Made by a program: the position numbers and the translations under genes. Below are positions 10,269 through 45,025 of a stretch of DNA of 45,025 nt, one piece after another; the first letter of the stretch is position 1, and every line of letters begins with the position of its first letter. Source of the DNA: a virus; the IMG/VR virus record IMGVR_UViG_3300005921_000005, positions 1 to 45,025 of that record; one strand, 5' to 3'. The notes beneath the pieces are model-generated. The model worked only from the letters and a program-made list of their open reading frames with translations. It did no database searches and was not told the DNA's origin.

Positions 10269-11768
10269 TTATTGTCTTCGCCACGGAGTCACACGATTAG
10301 GCATGTTGATGAACAACTCGCTTCCGGGCTTGCGCGCCTCTAAGCGCATGATTTCTAGATATTTAGCCGTCATGTCGGGAATTGCTTTGACGCGCAAATC
10401 GTCTTGGATTGCTCGAGGTATAGGCCTTGGGTTGAAGTACGACATCGTGGCGTACCTAAAACTTTCGAGTACGTCGTCTGCCAGATCATCGGTCTTGGCC
10501 GCATCTTCCAGGTCTTTGTCGTCCCGCATCAACAGCGGGAACGATTCGATAACGTCACGGCAGTTGGCAGAGACAACCAAGCCCTCGGTGTCGAGTAGCG
10601 TATAGATGAGCCGCCAGCCGCCCACGCGGTCGTTGTTTGCTCGCTCGGGTCGAGGTAAACCACTTCCGGCCAGCACGTCACCCATTCTATCGGCAATCGT
10701 GTGCTCTTCGTTGACGCGGTTGAATCGGTCGGGAGAAAGGTAAACATGGCTGATCGGCTCAACGTTCTTGGTTATCGGATCAGTGGAGTGCTCGACGATG
10801 AGTTCTGCAAGCGTCTGCTCATTCATTCCGCGCCTAACCAGCTCGCGGTAACAAACGATAACCGTTTTCTTTTGCCCAAAAGAATCAACGACTTCGGCGT
10901 TGGTGAACCAAAGTACGCAGGTGGCGTGGTTGAAGCCCCAATCAATACCAATCCATCTAGGCTGCCAATCCTGAAACGTAAAAGCTTTGACGTGTCGCTG
11001 GATGTCCCAGTTCGGAAAGAATTGCCCGGCAAGGATGTCCCAGGAACCTTCAAGCCACGCCGCTCGGAGATTGGGAGGAAGCGAACTAAGTCCTGCGATG
11101 TATTCGGCGTCGTTGGCATAGATGGGATTGTCGGCAAAGCTTGAGTGGATGACTTCGTAGTCCGCTGGGTTGTAGGTGTCATCGACTATGCCGGCGGGAA
11201 GCTTGTGCTGGATCCAAAGAGCTTTGACCCAGCCAGACCCGATTCCGTTAGGATTAGTGCCCCCGGCCATACGGGCGCGCGGCTTGTCACCGTAAATATC
11301 GAGCGGAACCGGACAACGATTGGAGCCTTTAATGAAAGCCCACTGAGGATAAGTAAACTGAGTGAGTTCATCCCAGCCAACGTAGAGATATTCAGGCCCC
11401 TGGAGTTGCTTGAGGTCGCTGTCGGCTTTGATGTGCCCGAAGAAAAGATTGGACTTGTTGTGGAAATAGACGGTGTGCTGCTGGCCGTTGTACTGCCGGT
11501 AGATGCCCTTCGGAACGTACTTGAGGAAGTGATCTTCAATGCCGCCTTGCTGGCTGGATTTGAGCGTGCGGCGAAGCAGAAGATTGTTTGAGCCAGGGAC
11601 TTCGCAAGCCGAACGAATCCCTTCCCAAAGAAGCGCCAGCGTCTTGCCGCCGCCGCGAGTGCCTTCTTGGAGTGGGTATCTGGCTGTACTTGCATGGAAT
11701 TGATGCTGTGGCCCCCAAGATGCGCCGTGGTCAGGAGTGTAAAATTCTCCAATGTTTATGGTGGGCAT
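10269..11768 (-). CDS. terL: Terminase large subunit
   Basis: 499 residues, ATG at 11766-11768, overlapping the small-subunit gene by 13 bases. Residues 36-43 read GTRGGGKT, a Walker A loop. YVGWDE at 129-134 is the Walker B with catalytic Glu. The C-terminal nuclease half opens with WIGIDWGFN near 272-280, giving the first metal-binding Asp. A later SPDRF near 348 gives a second candidate. The protein cuts concatemers and drives DNA into proheads through the portal. Length is normal for the family and all expected motifs are present. Confidence 0.93.
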   Translation of the reverse strand: MPTINIGEFYTPDHGASWGPQHQFHASTARYPLQEGTRGGGKTLALLWEGIRSACEVPGSNNLLLRRTLKSSQQGGIEDHFLKYVPKGIYRQYNGQQHTVYFHNKSNLFFGHIKADSDLKQLQGPEYLYVGWDELTQFTYPQWAFIKGSNRCPVPLDIYGDKPRARMAGGTNPNGIGSGWVKALWIQHKLPAGIVDDTYNPADYEVIHSSFADNPIYANDAEYIAGLSSLPPNLRAAWLEGSWDILAGQFFPNWDIQRHVKAFTFQDWQPRWIGIDWGFNHATCVLWFTNAEVVDSFGQKKTVIVCYRELVRRGMNEQTLAELIVEHSTDPITKNVEPISHVYLSPDRFNRVNEEHTIADRMGDVLAGSGLPRPERANNDRVGGWRLIYTLLDTEGLVVSANCRDVIESFPLLMRDDKDLEDAAKTDDLADDVLESFRYATMSYFNPRPIPRAIQDDLRVKAIPDMTAKYLEIMRLEARKPGSELFINMPNRVTPWRRQ

Positions 11769-13310: not shown

Positions 13311-13712
13311 TCAAGTTTGAACTTGGAGTCTCAATGCCAATGCTTCGGAACTCTCTAGCCGCTCGGTGTGCCGCTTGTGGCGGGGATCTTCGAAGATGAA
13401 GAGCCCTCGGTAATAGTCCGGCTCCGTGCGCGCGCCATCCATCGCCATGGTTTTGGCCTGGTATTCTCGCGGGCCGGTCTGCTCTAGGGATGAGCCGAGC
13501 AATAGGATTTCTTGCCGGCTGGCGTGGCGTTTGAAGCCGTTCGGGTAGCGAATCAGATAGTTGCGGTGCGGCAATAGAAAACCTTTGACGTGCTCGGGTC
13601 GAGGCAACAGGAATCTGCCCCTGCCTGTGGTCAGGGAGTGCGCGCACAAATAATTCGCTAGTTTGGGCTGGAATGCAAGAAAATAAAGATGTGTCGTTTT
13701 GAACACACCCAT
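13311..13712 (-). CDS. Hypothetical late protein
   Basis: 133 residues from ATG at 13710-13712, which shares one base with the stop of the HNH-like gene upstream (TGATG). The protein is basic with many Arg, Leu and aromatic residues (LPHRNYLIRYPNGFKRHASR) and has no clear domain. It is the second gene of the leftward operon. No family is recognised. Confidence 0.55.
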   Translation of the reverse strand: MGVFKTTHLYFLAFQPKLANYLCAHSLTTGRGRFLLPRPEHVKGFLLPHRNYLIRYPNGFKRHASRQEILLLGSSLEQTGPREYQAKTMAMDGARTEPDYYRGLFIFEDPRHKRHTERLESSEALALRLQVQT

Positions 13713-13969
13713 CAAACATGCATACCGTGTTCTGCTAAATGGCACTTCCCGCACAACCATTTTACTTCTAATGGTTTGTTGTAATCTGTATGGTGTCCGT
13801 TTATGCGTGCTCGCCTGCCGCATTCTTGGCAATTCTTGGGCTTCTTTATCGTTCGCGCTTTAATGGCTGCCGCTAACTGGCGATGCGCCAGTATCCTCTC
13901 AGGGTACCGCTCTTTCCACAAACGATTGTACTCCAGACGACGGTCTTTTAACTCTTGCACGTATCGCAC
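13712..13969 (-). CDS. Small HNH-like zinc protein, first gene of the leftward operon
   Basis: 85 residues from GTG at 13967-13969. The C-terminal half carries CQECGRRARINGHHTDYNKP then WLCGKCHLAEHG: two Cys pairs around an HH, the layout of small HNH nucleases. The N-terminus is basic and helical. The chosen GTG begins six bases after a TATAAC -10 box, so the mRNA may be leaderless. A similar core is found in the protein at 22053-22457. It may nick DNA, for example in packaging; this is a family inference. A longer frame to 14740 is rejected. Confidence 0.7.
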   Translation of the reverse strand: MRYVQELKDRRLEYNRLWKERYPERILAHRQLAAAIKARTIKKPKNCQECGRRARINGHHTDYNKPLEVKWLCGKCHLAEHGMHV

Positions 13970-13983
13970 AGACGTGTTATATA
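13955..13983 (+). promoter_or_regulatory. Early rightward promoter (sigma70-like)
   Basis: TTGCAC at 13955-13960 and TATATA at 13978-13983 with a 17-base spacer. The first ATG on this strand, 13992, begins eight bases after the -10 box, so the transcript would have no leader. The -10 shares bases with the leftward promoter. Confidence 0.6.
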
Positions 13984-14004
13984 GGCTAAATATGCCAAAG
14001 TCAA
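13976..14004 (-). promoter_or_regulatory. Leftward promoter overlapping the rightward one
   Basis: On the minus strand TTGACT (13999-14004) is followed 17 bases later by TATAAC (13976-13981). The GTG of the HNH-like gene begins six bases beyond. The -10 boxes of both promoters share 13978-13981, so RNA polymerase can occupy only one at a time. Confidence 0.55.
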
Positions 14005-14171
14005 CCAAGAAATGCGGCCACGTCCGGCACGCCAAGAATTGCCTGATTTGCCATCTCTCGAAGATAGGGCGAGCCACATCGCCGCGTAAAACAAGGGCCT
14101 TGCGCAATAATCTTTCAAAAGCGCGTGCCGCCAAGGCCATGAAAGCAGAGGAATTGCAGGAGGTTTCGTGA
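13992..14171 (+). CDS. Small basic Cys protein, first gene of the rightward module
   Basis: 59 residues from ATG at 13992. It has CGHVRHAKNCLICH near the start, a possible zinc site, followed by a basic helix rich in Ala, Lys and Arg. No ribosome site is seen; the ATG sits eight bases after the -10 box, consistent with leaderless translation. As the first gene of the early operon it could be a regulator, but there is no proof. Confidence 0.5.
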   Translation: MPKSTKKCGHVRHAKNCLICHLSKIGRATSPRKTRALRNNLSKARAAKAMKAEELQEVS

Positions 14172-14199
14172 ATGCTTCGCCTTGAACATGCTTTAGGGC

Positions 14200-14228
14200 T
14201 TGACAATCTATAACACGTTTGAGACAAT
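14200..14228 (+). promoter_or_regulatory. Second rightward early promoter
   Basis: A perfect TTGACA (14200-14205), 17 bases, then GACAAT (14223-14228, four of six matches). The ATG at 14235 is six bases beyond. The spacer holds TATAACACGTTTG (14209-14221), nearly the same as a 13-mer in the leftward promoter. Confidence 0.55.
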
Positions 14229-14234
14229 TTCTTT

Positions 14235-14630
14235 ATGGACATCCAAACCAAAGTCGCCCTGGACAAAGAGAAGCATCCCGAAAGATTCTGCAAGCAAAAC
14301 CGCTGCCTCTGGCGAGTGCTGGTCTGCCACCCCATGACGCGCGAAATGGTGCCTGCCAAGGGTTGCCAGAGCGGCTGGTGCCCGCGCCATACCCGAGCGG
14401 AACAGCCCGTTGCGCCAGCCCCGGCCACCGAGCGGCGCGAACGCACCCAAGTCGAGCGTAAAGTTGATTCCATGCTCGATGAGGTTTCGTTTCTGCTGTG
14501 GGGATGCCCGTTTGACGTGCTGGACCCGGTGCGGGCTGACGCCGTGATTGCCGAAGCTTCCATGAGATTTGATGTGAACCTGGTCGAGCAGGGCGATCTC
14601 GCACGCAAAGCGGCAAGAGAAAACATTTGA
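14235..14630 (+). CDS. Hypothetical early protein, Cys-containing
   Basis: 131 residues from ATG at 14235. The N-terminal 50 residues have three Cys-containing patches (RFCKQNRCLW, GCQSGWCPRH) that may bind metal. A charged linker follows and then a helical domain (VSFLLWGCPFDVLDPVRADA). No ribosome site, and a -10 box just upstream, suggest leaderless translation. First long gene of the early operon; function unknown. Confidence 0.65.
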   Translation: MDIQTKVALDKEKHPERFCKQNRCLWRVLVCHPMTREMVPAKGCQSGWCPRHTRAEQPVAPAPATERRERTQVERKVDSMLDEVSFLLWGCPFDVLDPVRADAVIAEASMRFDVNLVEQGDLARKAARENI

Positions 14631-19342: not shown

Positions 19343-19753
19343 GTGGCTTACGAAAATACTGTCGTGGCTGTGCCGAAGTCGCAAGACAAGATTCGCCAGC
19401 TCATTATGAAAAACAAGGGCACGGGAATCGCTTTTATTTCTCAGCCTCCAATGGAAGGCTTTCAGGCCATGATGCCGATTGACGGGCAGACCTATACAAT
19501 TCGCATCTCTGCTTATCTGAAAGGCGGGCGGCGCGATCCTGAAAAGGAAGCAAAACGCATCTGGCGCGTTCTTTTCCATCACCTGAAGGATATTTTCGAG
19601 GCTTCCAATTCCGGCGTAATGGAGTTCCGGGAATTGATTCTCCCTTACATCGTGACAAAGGACGGCAAGACGGTCGCACAACACATTTTGCCGAAACTGG
19701 ATTCTGCGATCAACGGCAATCCTGAGCGGATGCTGCCCGCCCCGAAGGAGTAA
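19343..19753 (+). CDS. Hypothetical early protein
   Basis: 136 residues from GTG at 19343, preceded by GGTAGGG. Compact mixed fold with FISQPPMEGFQAMMPIDGQT and HHLKDIFEASNSGVMEFREL. The coding sequence is followed by a 60-bp relic of duplicated upstream DNA. No family recognised. Confidence 0.7.
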   Translation: MAYENTVVAVPKSQDKIRQLIMKNKGTGIAFISQPPMEGFQAMMPIDGQTYTIRISAYLKGGRRDPEKEAKRIWRVLFHHLKDIFEASNSGVMEFRELILPYIVTKDGKTVAQHILPKLDSAINGNPERMLPAPKE

Positions 19754-22751: not shown

Positions 22752-22924
22752 GCGATAAGCACTGGCCGGCCCATCAGGACAGCGCAGAAGACCAGACGCC
22801 AACGAACAAGCAAGCGGCGACTCGGGCGTACTGCGCCAAGCACTCCCGAGCCATGCTGGACATTGGCGGAGAAAAGAAGTGCCCGGCATGCGAGGCGGAG
22901 CGGAAGCGGGCGGAGAAGCCATGA
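22748..22924 (+). CDS. 58-residue zinc micro-protein
   Basis: ATG at 22748 overlaps the previous stop (ATGA) and the end overlaps the next start in the same way. YCAKHSRAM and KKCPACEAER supply Cys and His ligands for a small zinc site, with a basic C-terminus. Function unknown. Confidence 0.65.
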   Translation: MSDKHWPAHQDSAEDQTPTNKQAATRAYCAKHSRAMLDIGGEKKCPACEAERKRAEKP

Positions 22925-23337
22925 AACGCGGCCCTAACGTCGGGCAGATCCTCATGGCCAAGCACCTGACCGAGATGGGGCTGGCCTTCACCGAGCAGGT
23001 TCCGGTCTGTCCAGGCCGGCGGTGGACGTGGGACTTCTTTTTGCCTGACTGGCGCATGGCGATCGAAGTCGATGGGATGTACCGCGGCACCCATGCCAGT
23101 TGGGGCCAGGACTACGAAAAGCAAAACTACGGCACGATGGTTGAGGGCATCCGGGTCATACGCTTCACTGCCAGGGAAGTCGAGCGAGGCATCGCACGGC
23201 AGTATTTAGAGGCGTGGCAGGATGGCAAGGCCTACCCACCAGCCAGAACCGATCGTGCGGGGAAGCGCCACAAGTCGGCCAGCAAACGGCAAGTTCTCAG
23301 CGGGGAAGCAAAAGCGCGGCTCAAGGAGTGGCTGTGA
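22921..23337 (+). CDS. PD-(D/E)XK-like nuclease (VSR/DUF559 type)
   Basis: 138 residues from ATG at 22921 (ATGA overlap). The core WTWDFFLPDWRMAIEVDGMY, then WGQDYEKQNYGTMVEGIRVIR, matches the fold of VSR-like and DUF559 endonucleases: a catalytic Asp, then IEVDG, then a helix, then IRVIRF. The C-terminus is Lys-rich. It may cut mismatched or branched DNA in recombination with the ERF protein; this is inference from context. Confidence 0.75.
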   Translation: MKRGPNVGQILMAKHLTEMGLAFTEQVPVCPGRRWTWDFFLPDWRMAIEVDGMYRGTHASWGQDYEKQNYGTMVEGIRVIRFTAREVERGIARQYLEAWQDGKAYPPARTDRAGKRHKSASKRQVLSGEAKARLKEWL

Positions 23338-38132: not shown

Positions 38133-38708
38133 ATGATCGGAAAGAAATTTGGACGCCTCACTATTCTCAGAATTTCTAAAGAAAAGCATGACCGCCGTGG
38201 AGCTTTCTTTGTTTGTCGCTGCGCTTGCGGCAACGAATGCACCGTCCGCCGTGATGGGCTTACTAGTGGTCATGCCAAATCCTGCGGCTGTTTGCAGCGC
38301 GAGGCGGCTACAAAAAACTGCCTTAAGAGAACTATACATGGCGATTGTCGTAGAGGAAAACGTACTAAAGAGTTCCGATCCTTCTGTTCAGCGAAAGATC
38401 GTTGCTCAAATCCCAACATCAAAGATTGGCATCGATATGGCGGACGAGGCATAAAGTTTCTCTTTGTTTCTTTTAAGCAATTCCTTTCGCACATCGGGCG
38501 TATGCCCCATCCAGGACTAACGCTTGATAGAATCAACAACGAAGGCCACTATGAAATTGGAAATGTTCGTTGGGCGACTCATTCTGAGCAATGCCGTAAT
38601 CGCCGGAAAATGAAAGTCTCCAAGAGAATGCTTGCAGCACTGCGAATAAACATCAAAAAAGCACAAGAAGCTCTTAGGCTTAAGCGTTTGCGGTCGCAGT
38701 CCCTCTGA
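38133..38708 (+). CDS. Free-standing HNH homing-type endonuclease, antisense insertion
   Basis: 191 residues from ATG at 38133. CRCACGNECTVRRDGLTSGH then KSCGCLQRE is an N-terminal zinc module, and FCSAKDRCSNPNIKDWHRYG plus LTLDRINNEGHYEIGNVRWA then QCRNRRKM is the HNH core. The C-terminus is a basic helix. The base composition is AT-rich compared with the neighbours. It stands opposite to the late operon between two late genes and its 3' end overlaps the next gene, so it looks like a mobile insertion. Confidence 0.88.
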   Translation: MIGKKFGRLTILRISKEKHDRRGAFFVCRCACGNECTVRRDGLTSGHAKSCGCLQREAATKNCLKRTIHGDCRRGKRTKEFRSFCSAKDRCSNPNIKDWHRYGGRGIKFLFVSFKQFLSHIGRMPHPGLTLDRINNEGHYEIGNVRWATHSEQCRNRRKMKVSKRMLAALRINIKKAQEALRLKRLRSQSL

Positions 38709-41700
38709 CACTTGACCACGCATCTTTTTGAAGCGATGCAACAATTTTCGACAATGAAAAGCTCGAGCCAACCGCATTCGTTCCTACGCATATAAAAAAT
38801 CTTTCCCCGGATAGATTCACTGCTGCTTCCAAATCTCCAAGCGTAAACTGACTCAATGGAATGGAAGAGAGCAAGTACGGTAAGTTCTGAGGGCTCTGAA
38901 CGTACACGCTCACGTTTAGATTTCCGTTGCCTTCTGCCAGAATACTCAAATATCCAAGCAACATACGACGCAAGCCGAGGCCCTTTGCATCTTGCATGTC
39001 AGCTTTTACTAGGCCAAAGGTAATATAATATGAGTTAATAGAAAATCCATCGTCATCCAGTTCAGTTGAGGAAAAAGCGTAGACCTTTGAGTTCCCGACG
39101 CCATTGCAAAGGAAAAGCGGCGTCTGATTGTTGGCTCTGTCGCAAAAATCAGCATACGGGCTCTGCAAGTTCCAGAATGACCACTTCCTAGCGGGTTCCG
39201 GTGCGAGTAGTCTGCCGGAAAAGGAACTTCTGATAGGCGCAGTGTCGGCGATGGCCATTCCCGAGTTGAGTTCGCGGTAGTTCATCATCAAAATTACGTT
39301 TGGCGTCTGTGGATTTGCGTTGATTGGGAACTGCGGCATGTAAATATTTGGCGTAACGATGGGAACGCCAACATAAAGCCTTCGTTGCTCAGGATCGTTG
39401 CGCAGCCAGATGCTTTGCGCGGCAGGCCAGTTGATGAGATCCCAAACAGGCGCAATTTCCTGAGAAACCTTAAGTGGTTCAGAACCAGAAAAAAAGTAGA
39501 CTCCGGCACGACACGCTGAAAACGCCCAATCCTCCCCGTAGTCATAGGAGTGACTGCCGATAGTTCCGATTTTGTTCGAAACTTCCCGCCAATTCCAGAA
39601 AGCAGGCTCCGAATTCCCGGTATCGCTGGTCGAGTACCAAGATTTTGTTTTCAGCGCGTATAAAGTGTCGAAGAGAACCATGCCGCCCCGAATCGGCTGC
39701 TGATTCTGCGACGGCCCGAAGTGCCCGGTCACTAAATCGAATGCTTCGGGATTGTCCGCGTAGCTGGCGGTGAAGGAAGTCGCAAAGGAAGGCTCTGCCG
39801 TGGGAAAAGGCTCGACGCGATCCACTTCCACATCTCCGCCGTTCGGGAGATTTGTGGCATAGACTCTGAACTCCAAATCAAGCGGTACGGTAGTGAATGC
39901 CGTCGTTACCAGCGTTCCGGTAAAAATCTGCATGGTCGTTGTCATGCTCGCAAGCGGCACGGAAAAGATTCCGAACGTGGTTCCTAGTTTCGGGCTGTAA
40001 ATATCCATGACCAAGTTGCCGAGCGTGACTCCCGAAGGGCAGCAGGCCGTCACGCGAATCGAGTATTGCGTGTTGGTTGTGACAATCGGAACCTGATAGA
40101 TGTCCTGATAGGCTGGCTGCTCGATCATTCCGTAGATGGCTTGTGAAACACCTGTTGCATTCTTGATGTAGAACGCGCTGCCAAAGATGGGCGAGACAAT
40201 CAGCGAGATTCCTCCGCCGTTGATCGGGTCAACCGTCCAGCCCAGCGGATAAGTCGTTGTGGTTCCCTGCACGGCGCTAGAGAGAACGCCTATGCCGCCA
40301 TCAAAGGAAAGATTGAGCAAGTTCTGGATTTTGTTCTGTTCCTGCCAGGCTATCAGCCGGTCGGAGTAACTGAGAAAGCCTACACAAGAGCCAAGTTCCG
40401 CCTGTTCGAAAAGATTGTTTCCCGCTACGTCGATGGCATCGCCGGCCAATAGCACCGCATCGGGAAACGACAGCGTCACTTGCGTGGTGATGTTGTCGTT
40501 GATGAGTGTCGCCGGGTAGGTGATAAGTTGGCCGTTGGTTGTTACCTGCACAGGCTCGGGAATCCAGAAGAAATTTCCTCCATTCGCTCCGGTAAACGCA
40601 AGAATGCGCGCGGTAACGTTTGGCGGTCCGATGGGAATGTTCGAAACGACAATGGCTCCCGCCGAGGCTGTGATGGTGAACTGCACAAAAGGCGACGGAG
40701 CGGTCAGTGCTCCATTCCTGGTCTGGAAGATAACCACGCATTGCCTTGTACCGACGCCCATCACGCCGGTTGTCGAAACCAGTCCTCCGGTGGAGTTTCC
40801 CAGGATTGGATTGGTCACTGTGCCGGCGGGATCGAACTGGAAGATAGTCCCAGAAATGATTCCCGTTCCTGTCTCAGCAGCCGGCGAAATGTTCGATGAA
40901 GAAACCAGAGACACGGAGAAACTGGTCGGACTGGCAGAAGTGATTACGGCATTCGATACGTTGAAGATCCCGTTGCCATTGAGAGTTCCTGTCACCGTGG
41001 CAAATTGGCCCAAAACAGGCGCAACTCCGGTGATGATGGTAAAGACGTAGTTGGCGACGTTGGCTGTCAGGCTGGTTTGCGTGATTTGCAACTGCGCGGC
41101 GTTGGGCGTGGCTGCCACCACAAACGTGTTGTCGTAGCCCGCCGTGCCCGCTCCGGTGACGGTCATCTGGTTGCCGACTTCTAGGAACGGAACCTGCACT
41201 GCCGCGGTCAGTGTCGCAAGCGTCGATTGAATCGTGCAGCCGCCGGGAGTCAGCGCGTTGTAGTAGGCCGTAAACGGAACCTGAAAGGTGATCCAGTCAT
41301 AGCTCTGCTGGCCTGCAACGGTCGAGCCAACGCTGGTGATGGTGTAATAGGCCGGATTGAAGACGCCTGCGGGATCGTTGTTGACATTGTTTCCAGCGAT
41401 GGACGGGAAACCTAGAATCTGGATGTTGGTTCCTACTTTATAGACTGGAGCAAGAGGACTTCCCGTGGTTGGCGGAACGAAAGCGGCATGAACGATAATC
41501 GTCATCACGTTTCCGGGAGTTGCCGGAGCGCTGAACGTCCCGGTAGCCGATGGAGCGGCACTGACCAGCAGCCAGTCGTGCGCTCCGGTTGGCAGAGCCG
41601 TTGCCGCGTTTTGCGTGATCGTGAGTACGGCACTGCCGGAACTTGTCGTAGTGACCGACGGCGGAGCGCCGGGGCCAACCTGCGAAACCCGGTCAAGCCA

Positions 41701-43863
41701 TTGCCCATTCCACAGCCTTGGAACGTCGGTGCCGTTAATCAGATTCGATATGCCGATATATTCCACGTCATCGAAAGTCACTGACTTGGCGTAGCTGCCC
41801 GGCTGGATAGCTGTTGAAATGTTGTTCAAAACTCCTGGATTTGCAGTGACATTCTCATCCCACAAGAGGCCGTTAGCGTCGAGCAGGAGAGTATCTATCT
41901 CTCCATCGGTCTGCTCGTAAGTCTTGAGCCAATTTATGTTCGAGGCGGGCGCAGGAGACAGCCAAGCTTTGAGTTTCACGGCATAGATAAAGAAGCTGGC
42001 TACTTCACCGCCCAAGGCTGTAGCTACGAGATTGACAGTCAAGGTTGGATTGTCGAGCAGTGCCGGAGTCAGCGGAATCGCCCAGGAGAAGCTGGTAACT
42101 CCGGCTACAAACTCCGTGTCGGCCAGAGTTAGTTGGAAAGCCACGGTTTTAGGCGAAAGCGTTCCGTTTGGCAAGAGAATCTGAGCGGTCAGAATGGCGT
42201 CCGGCGACAGCGTCGATTGATGCCCGAAAACTTCGACCTGCAAGCCAAGAACGGATTCCGTTGCGGGGATCGTGAAAGGGAAATTGGAAGAGGCAAGAAT
42301 CTGCGAGCGGTTGGGAGAAGCAGTTCCCGAGCGAAACGTCGCCATCAGCGCAACCCAGCCGCCGCTGGTCTGCGTCCAGGTTGCTTGGACCGTCGGCCCT
42401 GCGCTGATAAGGAATGACGAAGAATAATTTCCGGTGATGTTCTGGATGGCGGCAAATGCCCCTGAAACCGTGGCGGAGAATTGCGTCGAGGCCGCTCCGA
42501 TAGAGAACTCATTCTGTCCAATAGTGAGAGTTGGCGCCGCTACGCTCGCGCTGTTCTGGGCGTTTGAGCTGACCTGATCGAGAACAGTGACGCCAGCGAC
42601 TTCGTGAATCAATCCATACAGCGTAAATGCGCCATTCCAAGTGATTAAAACGGTCAGCGTCCCAGCCGGAACAGGATTGACGGTGTAGAACATGAATGCT
42701 TGCTGCCCGTTGACGTTTGAAGTGTTTGAAACGGCAAGCTGGTACTCATTCCCTTGCGAATCATTGCAAACCGGAGAGATTCCCGGCCCTTGGCTGAAAA
42801 GCTCCGCAACGACAATGCTTCCTTTGGCGACGGGATTTGTGAACGTGATGCTGCAAAGCGCTTGCGCCTTGAAAGCTCCGCCCCAGCAGAACCATGCCCC
42901 TGCCCCGCCGACCGTCGCTGCAGCGCTGTAGGTTCCTACGGCGGTGACGGCCAGATATTCACCTACCGCCGAGACAAGGCTAGTCCAGCTCGGGCCAAGC
43001 CCTACGCCAGCGGCAGAGATCGAAAAGCCAACCAGCACGTCGCTCGGGTTTGTTGTGGTGAAACTGGGTGAAGCGATTGCGCCTGCCCCCGCCGCAGTTC
43101 CTTGCGCTACCGTGAACGGAACGTCGACCGCGCCAAGCCCGCCGACAGCCGAAAAGTAACTCGTCACCGCGGTTACGTAGGTCTGCTGACCGATAATGTA
43201 GGTGTAGTTGATCGTCAGGTTATTGACGGTCTGGTTCAGCACGCAATAGAACGGCTGGCACCAATCTATTGCCGGACCTGCAACGCCAAATCCCGCCGGC
43301 GTGCCCATGGGGATGTAGGTGTTTCCTGAATTATCGGTGATTCCGCTGATGGGAAAGATGGTCTGCCCGATGGGCTGCGATGCCGATGTGATGACCGGGA
43401 AAACAAACAGCGTGTTGCCTTTCACCAAGCCCGGCTCAAGGAATGCGCCAGTCGTAACGTTCTGGATGGTTGGGCTGTCGGTTTCGTGGTTTACGGTAAT
43501 CGGTGCAGCGCTGCCTTGCGCGTACTGCACGAGGCTTGGCGTTGTGTTCGTGCCGTTTAACGTGACGTTGGCGTAGGTTCCGGGAATTCCGAGCGTGGCG
43601 TTGGTGGGCGAGTTCCACGGAGCTTCGTTGGGTGTGGACGGCCCCGGCAGGGATTGCGCGTAGCCTGCAATCTTTTCGCTGTACAATCCCGCAAAAACAA
43701 ATTGCCCAAGCGTGCCGCCGCGTGTGAAGACACGGCCGACCGAGTAGTCTACGTCCTGGTTTTGCGGGCTTCCACCCTCCGGCAAATCTGCCGGGTCCAT
43801 TTCTGGAATCGCACCGCCCCATACAGTTAGCGCGACATCGGAAGCACCGCTTGCGTTGTTCAT
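38680..43863 (-). CDS. Giant tail protein (1727 residues), putative tail hub/tube-tip
   Basis: ATG at 43861-43863. Beta-rich all through, with many Thr, Val, Gly and Asn and repeated Ig- or lectin-type segments. Residues up to about 1200 are low in charge. The C-terminal 350 residues (FGPSQNQQPIRGGMVLFDTL, then LKTKSWYSTSDTGNSEPAFW, then YGEDWAFSACRAGVYFF) look like propeller repeats of P22-type tail hubs, a memory not checked. Contains GYDNTF, a variant of the GYNG module. It probably forms the tail body and interacts with the fibre. Its 3' end overlaps the HNH gene by 29 bases. Confidence 0.65.
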   Translation of the reverse strand: MNNASGASDVALTVWGGAIPEMDPADLPEGGSPQNQDVDYSVGRVFTRGGTLGQFVFAGLYSEKIAGYAQSLPGPSTPNEAPWNSPTNATLGIPGTYANVTLNGTNTTPSLVQYAQGSAAPITVNHETDSPTIQNVTTGAFLEPGLVKGNTLFVFPVITSASQPIGQTIFPISGITDNSGNTYIPMGTPAGFGVAGPAIDWCQPFYCVLNQTVNNLTINYTYIIGQQTYVTAVTSYFSAVGGLGAVDVPFTVAQGTAAGAGAIASPSFTTTNPSDVLVGFSISAAGVGLGPSWTSLVSAVGEYLAVTAVGTYSAAATVGGAGAWFCWGGAFKAQALCSITFTNPVAKGSIVVAELFSQGPGISPVCNDSQGNEYQLAVSNTSNVNGQQAFMFYTVNPVPAGTLTVLITWNGAFTLYGLIHEVAGVTVLDQVSSNAQNSASVAAPTLTIGQNEFSIGAASTQFSATVSGAFAAIQNITGNYSSSFLISAGPTVQATWTQTSGGWVALMATFRSGTASPNRSQILASSNFPFTIPATESVLGLQVEVFGHQSTLSPDAILTAQILLPNGTLSPKTVAFQLTLADTEFVAGVTSFSWAIPLTPALLDNPTLTVNLVATALGGEVASFFIYAVKLKAWLSPAPASNINWLKTYEQTDGEIDTLLLDANGLLWDENVTANPGVLNNISTAIQPGSYAKSVTFDDVEYIGISNLINGTDVPRLWNGQWLDRVSQVGPGAPPSVTTTSSGSAVLTITQNAATALPTGAHDWLLVSAAPSATGTFSAPATPGNVMTIIVHAAFVPPTTGSPLAPVYKVGTNIQILGFPSIAGNNVNNDPAGVFNPAYYTITSVGSTVAGQQSYDWITFQVPFTAYYNALTPGGCTIQSTLATLTAAVQVPFLEVGNQMTVTGAGTAGYDNTFVVAATPNAAQLQITQTSLTANVANYVFTIITGVAPVLGQFATVTGTLNGNGIFNVSNAVITSASPTSFSVSLVSSSNISPAAETGTGIISGTIFQFDPAGTVTNPILGNSTGGLVSTTGVMGVGTRQCVVIFQTRNGALTAPSPFVQFTITASAGAIVVSNIPIGPPNVTARILAFTGANGGNFFWIPEPVQVTTNGQLITYPATLINDNITTQVTLSFPDAVLLAGDAIDVAGNNLFEQAELGSCVGFLSYSDRLIAWQEQNKIQNLLNLSFDGGIGVLSSAVQGTTTTYPLGWTVDPINGGGISLIVSPIFGSAFYIKNATGVSQAIYGMIEQPAYQDIYQVPIVTTNTQYSIRVTACCPSGVTLGNLVMDIYSPKLGTTFGIFSVPLASMTTTMQIFTGTLVTTAFTTVPLDLEFRVYATNLPNGGDVEVDRVEPFPTAEPSFATSFTASYADNPEAFDLVTGHFGPSQNQQPIRGGMVLFDTLYALKTKSWYSTSDTGNSEPAFWNWREVSNKIGTIGSHSYDYGEDWAFSACRAGVYFFSGSEPLKVSQEIAPVWDLINWPAAQSIWLRNDPEQRRLYVGVPIVTPNIYMPQFPINANPQTPNVILMMNYRELNSGMAIADTAPIRSSFSGRLLAPEPARKWSFWNLQSPYADFCDRANNQTPLFLCNGVGNSKVYAFSSTELDDDGFSINSYYITFGLVKADMQDAKGLGLRRMLLGYLSILAEGNGNLNVSVYVQSPQNLPYLLSSIPLSQFTLGDLEAAVNLSGERFFICVGTNAVGSSFSLSKIVASLQKDAWSSVRGTATANA

Positions 43864-44307: not shown

Positions 44308-45025
44308 CTACGTAGTGGGCAAAACCAAAAATTGCACTGTGATCTTCGCCGTTCCGTTTCCAGCGGCAAAATTGTTCGTCACTTTTGAAATGACCAGGGC
44401 GGCATTGTCATCCGTCGGAGGATTCCCGGCGGTGTCCGTGGCCGAGAAACTTCCGATTTGCTGAATGGCGCGGTTGGGCGAGATGGTGACAAGGAAAATT
44501 CCGTTGCTCACGAGTGCCTGCGAAGCGCTGCCGGCAACAAAGGAAACCGCTCCGCCTGCGTCGGTGTAGGCTATCGAGCCGCCAAAGAAAACAATTTGGA
44601 TGACCAGCGGAACGATGCGGAAACCAACTCCCGGTGCGGGAACCAAGGTAATCGGAGTCCCGAACAAAGCAAGGATGTTTGCCGAAGTTAGCGCCGTAAC
44701 CGTTTGCGGCAGGTCGGCGGCTACCAGGGCGCGAAAAGCCGGAACGCCTGCAGCGCCAGAAGCCGGTCCGGACCAGACCGTGTTAGCGTTTTCATTTACG
44801 AGTGTGATCGTGTCGGCCAGCGTGCCCGTGGTTGTGACAGGCGAGCCCGTTACCGACGAACTGAAGATCCCCGGCACCGTCAGCGTGTGGGATACGCTTG
44901 AAACTGTTCCGCCTACCCCGGTCAGGTCGGCGGCTACCAGGGCCCGGAACGCTGGCTGCGCCGCTCCGCCGCTGGTTGGCCCGGCCCACACCGTGTTGGC
45001 GTTTTCTGTGGACTTTGTGACCGCC
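44308..45025 (-). CDS. Fibre-like tail protein, C-terminal part (continues at position 723 to 1)
   Basis: Downstream part of the gene whose start is at 721-723; bases 44926-45025 repeat 1-100. About 205 codons are unique here. It has two FRALVAADL repeats (near 44713-44792 and 44926-45005, spaced 213 bases, 71 codons) and a C-terminal domain shared with the protein at 12790-13293. Total protein about 446 residues. Confidence 0.85.
   Translation of the reverse strand, partial: AVTKSTENANTVWAGPTSGGAAQPAFRALVAADLTGVGGTVSSVSHTLTVPGIFSSSVTGSPVTTTGTLADTITLVNENANTVWSGPASGAAGVPAFRALVAADLPQTVTALTSANILALFGTPITLVPAPGVGFRIVPLVIQIVFFGGSIAYTDAGGAVSFVAGSASQALVSNGIFLVTISPNRAIQQIGSFSATDTAGNPPTDDNAALVISKVTNNFAAGNGTAKITVQFLVLPTT
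44926..45025. repeat. 100-bp terminal direct repeat, right copy
   Basis: Exact copy of 1-100. Overlap of a circular genome; the near-repeat at 44713-44792 in the same gene could also have complicated assembly here. Confidence 0.95.

Follow-up and report, generated by a model that had tools for sequence, protein, structure and literature searches.

We interpret the overlapping divergent promoters of this phage as one part of an exchangeable, autoregulated divergent control cassette with leaderless outputs, in which a cassette-specific regulator would act on a motif paired between the outer promoters; on sequence grounds, we believe and doubt this reading in about equal measure. The pair of overlapping -10 elements is in itself ordinary, and it is the surrounding cassette that constitutes the new part, as a variant of known control regions. 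All coordinates refer to the window, i.e. the whole stretch of 45,025 nucleotides that was analysed (IMG/VR record IMGVR_UViG_3300005921_000005).

The window carries a direct terminal repeat of 100 bp (1-100 and 44926-45025), and thus the record is probably a complete phage genome of ~44.9 kb. Codon-based calls place genes in two leftward blocks, at about 26.3-45.0 kb and 1-13.3 kb, and in one rightward block at 14.3-25.2 kb; an HNH-like gene and the small gene p59 are missing from these calls and were identified in other ways. The gene for the terminase large subunit (TerL, 10269-11768) lies in the left arm, while the right arm encodes an Erf-like annealing protein and a DNA methyltransferase. 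The sole clear divergent gap of the genome is the 22 bp between a leftward GTG at 13969 and a rightward ATG at 13992. Four phages were compared at this junction, one of them a 10-kb fragment: the window, G007 (IMGVR_UViG_3300044908_000046), G006 (IMGVR_UViG_3300021433_000008), and G008 (IMGVR_UViG_3300037846_000110). Two further records, G004 (L018) and G005 (L019), have a TerL 77% identical to that of the window; in the 15.0 kb read of the former and the 17.5 kb of the latter no divergent junction was seen, and nearly all calls, apart from isolated short rightward ones, point leftward where the window has its rightward early arm. Given these leftward genes, the divergent layout may stem from inversion or replacement of the early block. 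Among named phages, the junction DNA had no match and TerL reached at best ~31% identity, and a search for a host or prophage via TerL in genome contigs gave no match. The early arm also contains a 20-nt exact direct repeat (19050-19069/19770-19789) and a 24-nt direct repeat of 96% identity (19324-19347/19811-19834), whose first copy covers the GTG start at 19343. Furthermore, 22879-23337 encodes a 152-aa protein of PHROG 503 (5.8e-11) with weak homing endonuclease, DUF559, and Vsr matches, and an open frame of 1727 aa (38680-43863) is without a PHROG match at E 0.001.

The control cassette spans 13710-14234, its left edge varying with the relative between 13682 and 13710 and its right edge being the start codon of p131. 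Pairwise blastn among the four phages revealed that this region is exchanged as a unit between relatives. In window coordinates, homology of the left flank ends at 13681 (G006), 13707 (G008), or 13709 (G007); on the right it resumes exactly at the p131 ATG in four of the six phage pairs, 2 nt before it between G006 and G008, and at 13970 between the window and G007. What lies between these borders differs: the HNH-like gene and p59 in the window, a gene for a 66-aa CxxC protein and p59 in G007, an HTH_3 gene (E 8.3e-9, above the Pfam cut-off) and a gene for a 145-aa protein, HNH-like to the eye only, in G006, and a gene for a 58-aa CxxC protein in G008. A literature search on modular immunity regions found no matching paper, which is not proof of absence in print.

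With regard to the overlapping promoters, the initial annotation had placed the hexamers correctly: TTGCAC-17-TATATA on the + strand and TTGACT-17-TATAAC on the - strand have bases 13978-13981 in common. The leftward promoter, P_left, matches the consensus at 10 of 12 bases. Its -10 (TATAAC, 13976-13981) ends 6 nt before GTG 13969 and is identical in G007; its -35 (TTGACT, 13999-14004) is likewise kept there, but lies within p59 codons, so that its conservation is not independent evidence. The rightward promoter, P59, matches at 7 of 12 bases (3+4). Its -35 (TTGCAC, 13955-13960) corresponds to TTGCGT in G007, within a stretch that is otherwise poorly alignable, whereas its -10 (TATATA, 13978-13983, preceded by TGn at 13975-13977) reads TATAAG in G007 and ends 8 nt before ATG 13992. 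Both P_left and P59 lack the final T of the -10, which is present in P131 and in four promoters of G006 and G008, and for this reason they may be weak or unused; a strict scan (last -10 T required, at least 9/12 matches) listed neither. These scans used E. coli-type textbook frequencies, which may not fit the host.

By its hexamers alone, the P_left/P59 pair is not above chance: counted with spacer variants, divergent pairs of equal quality with overlapping -10 elements gave six hits at two distinct places in the whole window and 0-9 hits (mean about 2.5) in 20 dinucleotide shuffles. What raises the pair is its position in the one clear divergent gap and its partial conservation in one relative, as 13970-13981 is unchanged in G007 and the four successive changes at 13982-13985 alter the rightward -10 only, leaving the leftward one intact. 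Of three relatives with a divergent junction, G007 alone keeps the overlap. In G006 and G008 it is absent and the divergent promoters are separate, from which it follows that a common -10 is not a conserved need.

The third promoter, P131, drives toward p131 and was listed by the strict scan as TTGACA-17-GACAAT (14200-14228, + strand), with its -35 at 14200-14205 and its -10 at 14223-14228, ending 6 nt before the ATG at 14235. It is the strongest junction promoter of the window, with a score at least equal to any there, and overlaps nothing. It is also the most conserved of them, since 14200-14247 is unchanged in G007, compared with six changes in 14184-14199. Its gene p131 (14235-14630, + strand, 131 aa) is the first to the right of the cassette, is 94-97% identical in three relatives, and is preceded by three unrelated promoters at near-equal spacing, one in the window and G007, one in G006, and one in G008.

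All these promoters stand unusually close to their genes. Taken 7 bases past each -10, the predicted starts fall at 13969, on the GTG, and at 13990, two bases before the ATG, so that the HNH-like and p59 mRNAs would both be leaderless. When 100 nt upstream of each junction gene were scanned in the four phages, 9 of 10 genes had their best promoter ending 6-8 nt ahead of the start, or 7 of 10 apart from two start codons picked after seeing the result (the HNH-like gene, 13969 vs 13960, and the G006 HTH gene, second Met); the independent promoter sequences among the ten number seven, as the window and G007 have sequence in common. As controls, none of 23 interior genes had a promoter at that spacing, and 6.1% of 1500 random ATG/GTG codons had one at a gap of 5-8. 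An SD of at least 4 bases precedes 16 of the 23 interior genes (shuffled control 28%) vs one of the 10 junction genes. This one is the leftward gene of G007, with a gap of 32 nt also the single exception in spacing; hence the nine remaining starts, the two post hoc choices included, combine a -10 box 6-8 nt upstream with the lack of an SD. Two other assignments were rejected, namely a start of the HNH-like gene at GTG 13960, where the gap would be 15, and an SD-led p59, as G007 lacks the AGG at 13983-13985. Judged by titles and the openings of abstracts, a literature search found no paper on leaderless starts in phage control regions with divergent or overlapping promoters.

With each promoter oriented along its own transcription, P_left and P131 have TATAACACGTYTG in common at 12 of 13 positions. 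The first proposed operator copy, TATAACACGTCTG, lies over the -10 and start of P_left (13969-13981, - strand) and the second, TATAACACGTTTG, inside the P131 spacer (14209-14221, + strand), where it is identical in G007. Different motifs are common to the outer promoter pairs of the other cassettes: AATMAGCGTATT at 11 of 12 positions in G006, and TTGACAAGAC at 10 of 10, the -35 itself included, in G008. Sharing at these levels was equalled by 1, 1, and 3 of 300 shuffles for the window, G006, and G008, respectively. None of 24 non-cognate promoter pairs reached the score of the window, but one (window P59 with G008 P131) reached that of the G006 and G008 cognate pairs, and the sharing is therefore not decisive. 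At 0-1 mismatch, copies were found solely at the two outer-promoter sites in the window, G007, and G006 (the G006 search using the last 11 of 12 positions), while the G008 motif has exactly two copies without mismatch and one with a single mismatch. The distance from motif to start differs between the two outer promoters in both the window and G006; this agrees better with an operator than with an element of the core promoter. A phage-wide promoter motif was likewise considered for TATAACACGTYTG and rejected, as the window has two exact copies of it and no further one at one mismatch. Taken together, the inverted motif in the outer promoters of each cassette suggests paired operators. Separately, the divergent -35 elements of G008 are joined by a 10-bp perfect inverted repeat (L016:2098-2127).

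Which protein would bind these sites? In the window, the leading candidate is p59 (13992-14171, + strand), a 59-aa basic protein with a Cys/His cluster (CGHVRHAKNCLICH). It looks like a real gene: of 12 base differences to G007, 10 fall at codon position 3, and 2 of 59 residues are changed. We favour it because two phages with different leftward genes, the window and G007, have both p59 and TATAACACGTYTG, and G006 and the G008 junction yielded neither. This co-occurrence may, however, reflect linkage, as p59 lies between both motif copies. Searches of PHROG/Pfam-type families assigned p59 to no known family and recognised no DNA-binding domain, named phages gave no match, and the one match among solved structures (E 0.31) is not meaningful; its predicted structure is of modest confidence (pLDDT 74, pTM 0.36). 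A search by DNA pattern for further p59/P131 junctions returned G007 only. The earlier remark that no repressor gene is evident next to the promoters stands insofar as no HTH_3 gene occurs genome-wide, but it has to be amended by the HTH_3 gene at the same spot in G006 and by p59 as a candidate here.

The first leftward gene (13712-13969, - strand) starts with GTG and encodes an 85-aa HNH/zinc endonuclease-like protein, predicted to be translated from a leaderless message. Its product matches PHROG 2340 endonuclease (E 5.6e-18), and Pfam HNH below the cut-off (E 0.033); a protein search confirmed no relatives in viral contigs, and other genes take its place in G007, G006, and G008. One base past its stop codon lies a terminator-like hairpin with a T-rich tail (13687-13710, - strand), one of 12 such sites found vs 11.7 expected by chance over 10 kb. 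The fold, calculated on 55-nt stretches, has -14.6 kcal/mol in the window, -15.1 in G007, and -8.0 in G008. Owing to this hairpin, P_left may serve only the small leftward gene and not the late genes.

These observations bear on how the overlap itself is to be read. The initial annotation saw in it a built-in switch, as polymerase could occupy only one of both promoters. Two divergent promoters between the arms are plausible and their mutual exclusion follows from steric reasoning, but the early/late or lysis decision drawn from it is not supported. To be sure, the overlap is real, is kept in G007, and lies at the divergent junction of both arms. Yet it occurs in two of the four phages only, the early arm has in P131 a separate, stronger, and more conserved promoter that does not overlap P_left, and a hairpin follows the leftward gene, for which reasons an early/late switch by polymerase exclusion is unlikely. 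Moreover, tyrosine integrase (PF00589) was found in none of six records, and in published tests (PMC12825309) competition was slight except when one side was strongly activated. That exclusion at the -10 elements decides early versus late (or lysis) expression seems to us very improbable indeed.

The site might instead be an ordinary bidirectional promoter, i.e. a near-symmetric -10 bound either way, weak in both directions, and without a dedicated switch, which we regard as somewhat unlikely. TATATA is its own reverse complement, and the hexamers predict starts at a distance of 21 bp (13990 and 13969), within the 7-25 bp by which PMC10268837 defines the divergent starts of bidirectional promoters and near the common 23-bp class of PMC12825309. 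According to the latter, such sites are common, and the basal activity of five E. coli examples was too low for polymerase competition. However, the 18-bp arrangement with reciprocal -11A/-7T, the most frequent though not the only one in PMC10268837, does not occur here, both -7 T being missing, and genes at leaderless spacing are served in both directions. It is quite unlikely, in our view, that P131 is the sole functional promoter, P_left and P59 being chance hexamers and the HNH-like gene and p59 being expressed from elsewhere or hardly at all. The chance level of such hexamer pairs, the missing -7T in both, and the score and conservation of P131 would agree with this. But the codons of p59 are under constraint and the gene next upstream lies on the other strand, so that a nearby promoter is needed, and none of 500 shuffles was as good as P_left (score 7.5) at that spacing.

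In the cassette model that we prefer, the unit would sit where the leftward (terminase/structural) and rightward (recombination/early) arms diverge, with two outer promoters facing outward: P_left would serve the first gene on the left and P131 the early arm, and the window has P59 in addition. Transcripts would start at the start codons, and a cassette-specific DNA-binding protein, bound to TATAACACGTYTG once per outer promoter, would control both, resembling a Cro/C1-type regulator acting on divergent promoters. In G006, this would probably be the HTH_3 gene product, and in the window p59 is the candidate to be put first. The overlap of the P_left and P59 -10 elements would then mainly result from the packing of two leaderless genes with 22 bp between their start codons, and it would couple p59 with the leftward gene, not the early with the late arm. 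A more specific version, which is unlikely, would be a “plug-in” cassette: leaderless outward messages let the exchangeable unit end at the start codon of its neighbour, p59 binds TATAACACGTYTG in both outer promoters, and the sister phage uses its HTH_3 protein with an operator of its own. If true, leaderless starts would explain how control regions can be swapped without harm to the next gene, there being no untranslated leader to match; the cassettes would provide interchangeable pairs of regulator and operator as a compact natural set, and p59 would stand for a new candidate family of phage regulators of very small size.

How does this arrangement compare to known systems? In E. coli and Salmonella, bidirectional promoters, reportedly treated by Warman et al. 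in 2021, likewise have opposed and overlapping -10 elements and starts within 25 bp (predicted here). Unlike them, the window has a predicted spacing of 21 bp instead of the preferred 18, and its starts lie on or beside start codons within an exchangeable phage cassette. A TANNNT about 12 bp before the start codon is a published mark of leaderless genes (PMC3160421, PMC12340547), and the junction genes resemble these in lacking an SD and in placing the first -10 base 12-14 nt upstream of the start codon. They differ in that this geometry is seen at arm-leading genes, interior ones mostly having an SD, and in that P_left and P59 misfit at the last T. Control by EcoRV-type C proteins also involves divergent promoters that overlap, and in the related AhdI system the C transcript is leaderless (PMC5333194); here too a small candidate regulator, p59, is near such promoters. 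In contrast, no C or restriction-modification genes lie at the window junction, the phage methyltransferase being about 6.5 kb away.

Lambdoid-type immunity and control regions combine divergent promoters with operators, and the cassette as a whole is closest to these. We do not file it there, because the window is without an HTH_3 gene by its divergent promoters, whereas G006 has one at this junction, and because the six records gave no sign of temperate life in the form of a tyrosine integrase (PF00589). Furthermore, in three of the four phages the first leftward gene codes for either an HNH-like or a CxxC protein, and both arms are predicted to be leaderless. The likenesses nevertheless extend to several levels, as divergent promoters lie between the arms with paired operator-like motifs, the whole region is swapped among related phages, an HTH_3 regulator is present in one relative (G006), and a leaderless regulator mRNA is predicted, just as the lambda cI mRNA is leaderless (cited in PMC3293720).
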